Assembly: GCF_023074835.1 (NCBI RefSeq)
Contig: NZ_JALLGW010000001.1
Location: 1,550,001 to 1,614,000 of the forward strand
DNA length: 64,000 nucleotides
Source of the DNA: Halomarina salina
Lineage (GTDB): Archaea > Halobacteriota > Halobacteria > Halobacteriales > Haloarculaceae
Direction: 5' to 3'
In this document: positions 44,430-46,311 of the stretch, piece by piece
How the letters are laid out: each line of letters starts with the position of its first letter
Position numbering within the stretch: the first letter of the stretch is position 1
Made by a program: the position numbers and the translations under genes
Notes under the pieces: generated by a model
The model's database searches: none
The model's input: only the letters and a program-made list of their open reading frames with translations
What the model was told of the DNA's origin: nothing

Positions 44430-45080
44430 TCAGACGAGGTCCGTCAGCGGGTGGAGCGTCTCGAACTCGTAGGTGGGGTCGACCGAGAGGGTGAGGTCGG
44501 ACCGGTGCTCTCGGCGGAGGAACACCGAGTCGACGCCCGCGGCGTGGGCCGCTTCGACGTCGGTCTCGCTGTCGCCGACGTAGACGGCGTTCTCCGTCCC
44601 CACGTCGGCCAGCGCCCGCTCGACGAAGTGTGGGTCCGGTTTCTTGCGCCGGACGTCCTCGACGGTCGGCTGACGGCCGTAGTAGGTGACGAACTCCTCG
44701 CGCAGGTCGTAGTGGTCGAGGATGTACTCGATGGTCGCGTGCTGGTTCGAACTGACGATACCCAGGGGCACGTCGAGGTCGCGGACCACGTCGGCGTCCT
44801 CGTACATGGGTTTGCGTCCCTCGCGGACCTCGCGTTGCTGGACGGTCGTGTAGTTCGTGTCCCGGCGGTGCCAGAAGTCGGCCGGGTCGAGGCCGTGACG
44901 TGCGCACGTCGCCTCCAGTCCGTCGACGGTGACGCGCGAGGCCACCGCCGAGAGGTCGTCGTCGCTCGGGTCGACGTCGAAGTGCGAGAAGGCGTCGCGG
45001 GCGGCCCCTCGGAGCACGTCCCAGTCGGTTATCTCGGTGAGCACCCCGTCGTTGTCGAAGACGACCGCGTCGTAGGTCAC
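44430..45080 (-). CDS. HAD-superfamily hydrolase (phosphatase)
   Basis: The 216-residue protein has the HAD signature VVFDNDGVLTE near the start (nucleophile Asp in DNDG), LGIVSSNQHATIEYIL (motif II) and KPDPHFVERALADVG...YVGDSETDVEAAHAAG (motifs III-IV). It is a phosphoglycolate-phosphatase/beta-phosphoglucomutase-like subfamily. The start GTG at 45080 (GTG ACC TAC GAC) is preferred over the TTG at 45110, as it puts the catalytic Asp near residue 8. It follows the M24 gene by 31 nt. Confidence 0.85.
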   Translation of the reverse strand: MTYDAVVFDNDGVLTEITDWDVLRGAARDAFSHFDVDPSDDDLSAVASRVTVDGLEATCARHGLDPADFWHRRDTNYTTVQQREVREGRKPMYEDADVVRDLDVPLGIVSSNQHATIEYILDHYDLREEFVTYYGRQPTVEDVRRKKPDPHFVERALADVGTENAVYVGDSETDVEAAHAAGVDSVFLRREHRSDLTLSVDPTYEFETLHPLTDLV

Positions 45081-45111
45081 GCCCGGCTCTCGCCGTGGAC
45101 TGACAGTCAAC

Positions 45112-46311
45112 CTATCGGATGACGTTCGATTCGAGGTCCCGCGGGAAGTACGTCAGCACCTCGGAGCCGTCCTCGGTGACGACGACGGTGTCGGAGTGGC
45201 GGTAGCCCGCGTCGTCGGTGTAGAGGCCCGGTTCGATGGTGTAGATGTGCCCCGGCTCCATGCGGGCGTCCGCCTCGTCGTACTCGGTCGACTCGGACTC
45301 GCAGTGGGCGGTCCAGCCACGGTCGACGTACGGCGGTTCGTGGCCGTCCATCCCGATGTTGTGCCCGACGTGGTGCTGTGCGAGGTCGGCGACGCCCTGT
45401 TCCTCGAAGTAGTCCGACACCGCCCGGTCCACGTCCGCGAGGAGGACGTCGGGGCCGAGGGCCTCAATGGCGATGGTCTGCGCTTCGAGCATCACGCCGA
45501 AGTAGTGGACCTGCTCGTCGGTCGGTTCGCCGACGAACATCGTCCGTTCGAGTTCGGAGTGGTAGCCGTCGACGTTCGCCGACGCGCCCGTGACGAGCAC
45601 GTCGCCCTCCCGGAGTCGCTGGTTGGGCGTGTGGCCGTGCGGGAGGCGGGTCTCGTGGGCACTGATGAATCCCGCCGTCACCGGCCCGTCACCCCGAACG
45701 CGCTCGACGTAGCGACTCCCCAGCGTGTCGAGCATCGCCCGCGAGGCGTCCGTCGACGCCCGCTGGCTCACCGTCGCCGGGTGCGCGCCCGGTTCGGCGA
45801 GGTCCGCGAGGTAGCGATGGCCGAGGTTCGCCCACTTCGCCGACTCGCGAACCAGCGCCACCTCGTCGTCCGTTTTCGCCCAGCGCATCCGCGGGACCCA
45901 CGACTGCGTCTCGACGTCGAGGAACTCGCTCAGCGGCGGGCCGGTGTAGCCCATCGTCCCCGGCGCGCCGTCGGCGTCTGCGAGGACGGATTCCGCGCCC
46001 ATCTCGCGGACCATCGACGCGGCCGCCTCGACGGGTCGCCCGCCGGGGTAGTCGAAGTAGTGGTGGACCGCGTCGACGCGCGGGTTGTCCTGCACGCGGT
46101 CGACCTCCAGTCGCGGGACGGTCAGTTCGCAACGCTCGGGCGTGACGCCGAGGACGACCGGTCGCTCGGTCTGGATGTGCGCGAACCCGGTGAGGTACTC
46201 GATGCTCGTCGCGCCGAACCAGACGCCCGCGTCCGCGTCGCTCGCCGCGATGCGCTCGCGGACGGCCGCGAGACGGTCGTCGTACGCCGATTCGGGGAGC
46301 CGTGTTGCCAT
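45112..46311 (-). CDS. M24 family (creatinase/aminopeptidase P-like) hydrolase, degenerate metal site
   Basis: The 399-residue protein has an N-terminal creatinase domain (1-160) and a pita-bread catalytic domain (about 165-399). HHVGHNIGMDGHEPP has the conserved His and MEPGHIYTIEPGLY the Glu. But where metal enzymes have Asp, here VTGASANVDGYHSELERT carries Gly and Glu in place of the two Asp, and AGYRHSDTVVVTE has Ser in place of the final Glu. So three of five metal ligands are altered, as in metal-free creatinase-type M24 members. An amidinohydrolase or other metal-independent activity is inference. It lies between a phosphoesterase and an HAD gene on the same strand. Confidence 0.8.
   Translation of the reverse strand: MATRLPESAYDDRLAAVRERIAASDADAGVWFGATSIEYLTGFAHIQTERPVVLGVTPERCELTVPRLEVDRVQDNPRVDAVHHYFDYPGGRPVEAAASMVREMGAESVLADADGAPGTMGYTGPPLSEFLDVETQSWVPRMRWAKTDDEVALVRESAKWANLGHRYLADLAEPGAHPATVSQRASTDASRAMLDTLGSRYVERVRGDGPVTAGFISAHETRLPHGHTPNQRLREGDVLVTGASANVDGYHSELERTMFVGEPTDEQVHYFGVMLEAQTIAIEALGPDVLLADVDRAVSDYFEEQGVADLAQHHVGHNIGMDGHEPPYVDRGWTAHCESESTEYDEADARMEPGHIYTIEPGLYTDDAGYRHSDTVVVTEDGSEVLTYFPRDLESNVIR

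Follow-up and report, generated by a model that had tools for sequence, protein, structure and literature searches.

A gene in the window (the whole stretch of 64,000 nucleotides of Halomarina salina DNA that was analysed) encodes a protein of the M24 family in which three of the five metal-ligand positions are replaced. With moderate confidence, we propose that this protein is a non-peptidase, creatinase-type M24 hydrolase, which would cleave a C-N bond in an N-substituted amino acid that is small and bears a carboxylate, with no dinuclear metal centre taking part. As judged from its residues, it appears to be a creatinase-type M24 variant equipped with a third active-site glutamate.

Domains and active-site residues

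The protein belongs to the M24 (pita-bread) fold, as seen from a profile match to PF00557 well over the cut-off (E 1.3e-37, 130 bits vs a cut-off of 23) and from a fold match over the full length. The N-terminal part was recognized by PF01321 at E 3.3e-08. The nearest named relatives found, in a search from which the window's own records were possibly excluded, were those of Halomarina rubra and H. oriensis (88-89% identity). The features discussed below are the following:

45112..46311, minus strand: coding sequence of the creatinase-like M24 protein (399 aa, ATG start)
46003..46275, minus strand: Creatinase_N domain match, residues 13-103 (PF01321)
45172..45855, minus strand: M24 catalytic (pita-bread) domain match, residues 153-380 (PF00557; model mean pLDDT 93.4)
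46162..46164, minus strand: Arg50, aligned with creatinase Arg64 (alignment and M24 survey)
45637..45639, minus strand: His225, aligned with creatinase His232 (alignment)
45547..45588, minus strand: Gly242 to Glu255, with Asp replaced by Gly242, Asp replaced by Glu253, and the creatinase-type Glu255 (ELERT) (alignment and survey)
45340..45363, minus strand: His317, a retained metal-ligand position, to His324 (alignment)
45232..45234, minus strand: Glu360, a retained ligand position, aligned with creatinase Glu358 (alignment)
45190..45207, minus strand: GYRHSD motif, with Ser373 at the fifth ligand (Glu) position (alignment and survey)

Replacement of the metal ligands

When the protein was aligned with the prolidase of Pyrococcus (PDB 1pv9), the first region was free of gaps (VIDLGALYNHYNSDITRT against VTGASANVDGYHSELERT), and the two Asp ligands were found to be replaced by Gly242 and Glu253 at the usual 11-residue spacing. 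His317, within VGHNIG, and Glu360, within TIEPG, were retained, and the fifth ligand was changed from Glu to Ser373 (GVRIEDT against GYRHSDT). The five metal-ligand positions read Gly242, Glu253, His317, Glu360 and Ser373 vs the canonical Asp, Asp, His, Glu and Glu. Compared with the prolidase, the loop that joins Glu360 to Ser373 lacks one residue; the register at Ser373 is nevertheless safe, because relatives, such as a Natrialba plasmid protein, have a full-length loop and the same RHSD.

The conservation of these residues was followed in a set of 97 orthologous loci, which gave 95 sequences after two split-frame loci had been left out, and 85 distinct sequences after removal of 10 repeats. 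Nine of the ten positions checked (H225, G242, E253, E255, H317, H324, E360, H372 and S373) were invariant in all 95 sequences; the tenth, H227, was His in 92, Phe in 2 and Tyr in 1. All five ligand positions were identical in 85/85 distinct orthologs, and Arg50 was likewise invariant. Because of this invariance, the G/E/H/E/S pattern was taken to be selected and not noise.

The first-pass annotation had read the Asp, Asp and Glu ligands as changed to Gly, Glu and Ser, with the His and one Glu kept, and both the alignments and the 85 distinct orthologs bear this out. It had also described the protein as lacking three of five ligands; three positions are indeed replaced, but the loss was overstated, because Glu253 is still a carboxylate.

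In two orthologs, the coding sequence is divided between two reading frames, through either a frameshift or an assembly error: one in Halegenticoccus tardaugens (L090, 4917-6179) and one in Halorubrum amylolyticum (L100, 4454-6172).

Glu255 as a mark of the creatinase-type site

The best argument, absent from the first-pass annotation, is Glu255 in the ELERT motif, which by alignment is the counterpart of creatinase Glu262. Residue pairs with creatinase and with the ectoine hydrolase DoeA were read from an alignment that included the PDB sequences 1chm and 6twk. For creatinase, the pairs (window protein first) were R50-R64, H225-H232, G242-N249, E253-A260, E255-E262, H317-H324, E360-E358, H372-E375 and S373-H376.

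The occurrence of Glu255 was examined in an M24 survey of 46 rows (tblastn hits and PDB chains selected by hand, not at random), in which 12 rows were ligand-intact (D, D and E at positions 242, 253 and 373) and 34 ligand-altered. Glu occupied position 255 in 30 of the 34 ligand-altered rows vs none of the 12 ligand-intact rows, which all carried Thr or Ser there. The four ligand-altered exceptions were two DoeA and two sarcosine-oxidase-associated proteins. Arg50 was tried as a second creatinase mark and rejected, since 10 of the 12 ligand-intact rows have Arg too and the other 2 have a gap. The M24 genes found beside sarcosine oxidase in Roseovarius and Aminobacter were rejected as creatinases, the creatinase residues being absent from them.

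Two alphaproteobacterial M24 genes (L113, 5998-7140, and L125, 3998-5143) lie amid annotated ectoine-type ABC transporters and sarcosine oxidase subunits. Their ligand positions are more altered still (Cys, Gly, Arg, Asp, Gly), and by residue pattern they are no creatinases. On a plasmid of Acinetobacter pittii, one M24 gene (L124, 3908-5146) has the creatinase residues at all tabulated positions and lies near formaldehyde-detoxification genes, as might be expected downstream of sarcosine oxidation.

Phylogeny and predicted structure

Trees were built without the ten active-site columns; they contain long branches. The window family formed a clade of 23 rows (support 100/99), including haloarchaeal and Deinococcus plasmid relatives, in which E253, E255, H372 and S373 were kept in 22/23 rows; position 242 was Gly in 17 and Ile, Ala or Phe in 6. 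All 34 ligand-altered rows of the survey fell on one side of the tree (89/86), which requires one change of ligand state. In the full tree, the family and creatinase were not a clade, and their forced grouping was not rejected (p-AU 0.125); when eight long-branch rows were removed, they formed one clade (90/89). Forcing the family with the prolidases was weakly rejected (p-AU 0.035), the groups of the AU test having been named after the first tree was seen. With moderate support, these trees suggest that the M24 metal site was lost in one event common to the family and creatinase, and not by isolated decay.

An AlphaFold2 model was computed from 46 sequences (mean pLDDT 93.4). With VIA-align, the top three matches of the model were the creatinases 1chm, 7yto and 1kp0 (Z 40.3, 40.1 and 39.8); the best prolidase (Xanthomonas, 5cde) reached 38.8 and DoeA 35.7, so that the creatinase lead over the best prolidase was small (1.0-1.5). 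Foldseek ranked prolidases first by E-value and, among the 50 matches listed, creatinases highest by TM-score on the query length (0.83-0.84). The predicted fold appears narrowly closest to that of creatinase.

Proposed reaction and the question of the metal

By analogy with creatinase, the substrate would be an amidine, guanidino or amide N-substituted amino acid. Glu255 and Glu360 would bind its cationic or amide group, His225 would serve as acid/base, Arg50 of the partner subunit in a presumed dimer would hold the substrate carboxylate, and catalysis would proceed without a dinuclear metal centre. These putative functions are carried over from those that Coll et al. (1990) reportedly gave to creatinase His232, Glu262, His324, Glu358 and Arg64. 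Metal independence, as read by the first-pass annotation, is plausible for the window protein. One creatinase, according to PMC7568399, kept >80% activity with EDTA, though Mn and Mg enhanced its activity. Against the proposal, it must be mentioned that creatinase Asn249, Ala260, Glu375 and His376 have no matching residues here, that Glu253, a carboxylate which creatinase lacks, could bind a metal, and that prolidases rank first by both sequence and Foldseek E-values.

Glu253, His317 and Glu360 occupy what we take, from the assignment in methionine aminopeptidase, to be three of the four His-side positions of the metal site, and the position of Ser373 is that of the bridging Glu of the canonical site. 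The protein could thus be a mononuclear metallohydrolase (a one-metal peptidase, amidase or lyase), in which the Gly242/Ser373 site would be lost and the His-side Glu253/His317/Glu360 would survive; we consider this alternative unlikely, though it deserves serious weight. The three His-side positions carry Glu, His and Glu in all 85 distinct orthologs, and three papers offer precedents: human prolidase is reported to bind the metal beside the His more tightly than the other (PMC8438212), methionine aminopeptidase is mentioned in a mono-metalated form (PMC4404410), and the M24-fold lyase DddP, first reported as metal-free, binds mainly iron, the usual ligands being intact there (PMC4108388). 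However, creatinase also keeps the counterparts of His317 and Glu360, so that conservation of these two residues needs no metal. Furthermore, one member of the 23-row clade (L111) has lost Glu253 yet kept Glu255.

SPT16-type M24 proteins have a non-peptidase role, and they were found among the structural matches at Z 30.2-32.5. With this precedent, the window protein might be a pseudoenzyme or a binding protein with a dead peptidase site, and LmaPA2G4 is called a non-peptidase M24 pseudoenzyme in PMC3888471. Such a role is improbable, because the residues invariant in 85/85 distinct orthologs are those of the active site and not of the fold core alone, and they are mostly held in the Deinococcus and plasmid relatives; if the site were dead, its residues should have drifted.

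Lastly, the protein could be an ordinary dinuclear Xaa-Pro dipeptidase or aminopeptidase tolerating the substitutions, as prolidases are its best sequence matches by E-value and NCBI gives its relatives that name. This is extremely unlikely: of the canonical ligands, neither the first Asp nor the last Glu remains, Glu replaces the second Asp, and the D, D, H, E, E ligands of Xaa-Pro peptidases (M24B) were found neither in the window protein nor in any of the 85 distinct orthologs. Moreover, the scores with the Xaa-Pro peptidase equivalogs stayed under their cut-offs (NF040821 PepQ, 102.3 vs 630 bits; PRK09795, 77.1 vs 393; PRK10879, 42.6 vs 465), and the host genome also encodes ligand-intact M24 proteins (L001 and L002). 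The view of the first-pass annotation, that the protein is creatinase-like and not an aminopeptidase, is upheld by the shared His225, Glu255, His317 and Glu360, by the top structural Z, by the trees and by the fact that no peptidase equivalog cut-off was reached.

Distribution and genomic neighbourhood

A match at E <= 1e-60 was present in 116 of 292 Halobacteria genomes (45 of 77 genera), a count in which paralogs (44-62% identity) are included; in 9 of the 116, the best match was of the paralog kind. Upstream of the gene in the window are metallophosphoesterase, FAA hydrolase and D-2-hydroxyacid dehydrogenase genes. Downstream, on the same strand, come a HAD hydrolase gene and then a purine-nucleoside-permease-like gene:

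44430..45110, minus strand: HAD-family hydrolase, directly downstream (the listed TTG start leaves one base to the M24 gene)

The full neighbour set is kept only in H. rubra and H. oriensis, and partly in Halomarina halobia (L057). As the full set is limited to the two nearest species, the window neighbourhood was dropped as a clue to function. The downstream HAD gene, which is kept in place only in these two species, is not claimed as part of the system; in 8 Halorubrum loci, a 46-48% identical HAD is encoded on the other strand, about 2.5-3 kb off. The M24 core gene was seen upstream of a same-strand HAD-cbiB-cobS row at L093 (5001-11167) and at 32 further loci.

The gene is often upstream of a HAD-cbiB-cobS-cobY row, and its product might be a late enzyme of cobalamin synthesis (nucleotide-loop or corrinoid-salvage). 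A same-strand HAD of the cobalamin row was downstream in 33 of the 68 named-record loci, within 300 bp in 22 of them and accompanied by cbiB in 28; at L093, the genes that follow have matches to CobD_Cbib, CobS and an NTP-transferase. Gene order suggests that the HAD of the row would be HVO_0586 and the M24 gene possibly HVO_0585. HVO_0586, next to cbiB (HVO_0587), is listed as the predicted phosphatase of the pathway in PMC8305020.

Attractive as it was from synteny, a B12 enzyme is very unlikely, and is kept as a rival reading only after being weakened by genomes that have the gene without cbiB. Such genomes, in which no cbiB match was found, amount to 23 of the 116 with the gene; its occurrence does not follow that of the pathway, which makes a B12 role doubtful. 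In all 23, the best match has an E-value of 1e-174 or better, so that the core gene itself is present and none of them is a case of a paralog alone. The gene was rarer in genomes with cbiB (93/258) than in those without (23/34; odds ratio 0.27, p 0.0006, uncorrected for kinship). In addition, 32 of the 65 loci having at least 800 bases downstream showed no such HAD, and in the host genome the HAD and cbiB genes are together but about 1.4 Mb from the M24 gene.

A broader reading, speculative and of low probability, would make the proteins a distinct enzyme family of haloarchaea and some bacteria, in which the prolidase metal pocket was rebuilt as a site with three carboxylates (Glu253, Glu255, Glu360) and several histidines. 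Its reaction would be new to M24 proteins, and would touch corrinoid or aminopropanol metabolism in the many haloarchaea where the gene heads the HAD-cbiB-cobS row.

Plasmid relatives and candidate substrates

The plasmid relatives (haloarchaeal, Deinococcus and others) are 34-58% identical to the window protein. Most of the copies examined lie near transporter genes, whereas the window gene does not. One plasmid setting, in which hydantoinase and creatininase-family genes are accompanied by those of an amidase and a Zn-dependent hydrolase, counts for the proposed creatinase-type hydrolase, as does another where an N-methyltryptophan-oxidase-like gene is the neighbour and a sodium/proline symporter lies at a greater distance. 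Others contain a sodium:solute symporter, or ABC transporters of other kinds, beyond which diol dehydratase genes were seen in one instance, and a further one holds amidohydrolase and alpha/beta hydrolase genes, with dipeptide-type transporter genes further off. The Deinococcus relatives adjoin peptide or unspecified ABC transporters. Against the proposal, some plasmid relatives have as neighbours a ligand-intact M24 gene and ABC transporters of the oligopeptide/dipeptide type; one of these relatives is also near proline dehydrogenase, so that a peptide-related substrate would fit as well. Uptake and breakdown of small nitrogen compounds is a frequent theme of these loci; the settings vary, and no single substrate is named by them.

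In the host genome, profile searches gave no urease alpha subunit, no monomeric sarcosine oxidase over the cut-off (weak matches lay below it) and no DoeB over the cut-off (three weak TIGR02994 matches); 5 matches to the creatininase family, a broad one, were obtained. Since urease alpha, DoeB and monomeric sarcosine oxidase were not found over cut-off, creatine or ectoine is unlikely to be the substrate in this host, and these pathways were rejected as a source of the substrate, not as a model of the chemistry.

Two contigs of the host assembly (G000, C1, 7601-9387, and C2, 679920-681706) carry creatininase-family and oxidase-like matches whose scores and spacing are equal. One copy is within 10 kb of a contig start, which suggests a repeated stretch in the assembly.

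A Haladaptatus plasmid (L129, 7986-12603) carries three M24 genes close together, along with an amidohydrolase gene: one of the RHSD type, one EEERT variant and one of the ligand-intact prolidase type. On three other haloarchaeal plasmids (L104, 7986-10388; L105, 11986-14377; L107, 7992-10351), a ligand-altered M24 gene lies beside a ligand-intact one. This side-by-side arrangement might point to a paired action.

Annotation of the family

Database records, read by region, name the plasmid relatives 'Xaa-Pro peptidase family protein' and assign them the GO term proteolysis. For the window protein, this label is probably wrong, as judged from its residues. The warning of the first-pass annotation against a default Xaa-Pro peptidase label was justified insofar as the label is misleading: relatives do bear this name, and the ligands and equivalog scores do not agree with it. 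Among the matches listed in searches of open-licence papers, none dealt with this M24 subfamily. The group is labelled as proteolytic, which its active site argues against, and a corrected label would stop it from being counted as prolidase. Metal loss in the M24 fold can also be examined compactly in this family.

Comparison with known M24 enzymes

Archaeal prolidase/PepQ (PDB 1pv9, 1wy2) shares with the window protein the two-domain architecture and the fold, and gives the best or near-best sequence E-values. The two differ in that three of the five metal-ligand positions are replaced in the window protein, and in that 1pv9 has Thr at position 255 where the window protein has Glu.

DoeA/EutD (PDB 6twk, 6twj, 6yo9) is an M24 fold which also lacks the canonical metal ligands (Z up to 35.7). 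In contrast to the window protein, it has Ser, Tyr and Met at the positions of Glu255, His317 and Glu360, and Glu at that of Gly242. The DoeA models scored below their cut-offs (TIGR02993, 50.7 vs 613 bits; NF038259, 41.9 vs 575 bits). Ectoine hydrolase, which the first-pass annotation had named for comparison, is not supported as a relative or a model, given these three residues and the score of 50.7 against 613.

With creatinase (PDB 1chm, 7yto, 1kp0), the fold is shared along almost the entire chain (Z about 40, rmsd 2.2-2.5 A), all of the positions His232, Glu262, His324, Glu358 and Arg64 are matched, the first Asp and last Glu metal ligands are lost in both, and the C-termini are similar, ending in IR. 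However, only 88 of 367 aligned residues are identical. The window protein has Glu253, Gly242 and Ser373 where creatinase has Ala260, Asn249 and His376; creatinase Glu375 is not kept, H372 being found there, and Arg331, the counterpart of Arg335, is Arg in only 63 of 85 distinct orthologs. Because the signature formed by Asn249, Ala260, Glu375, His376 and Arg335 is not that of the window protein, we classify it as creatinase-like, and not as a creatinase.
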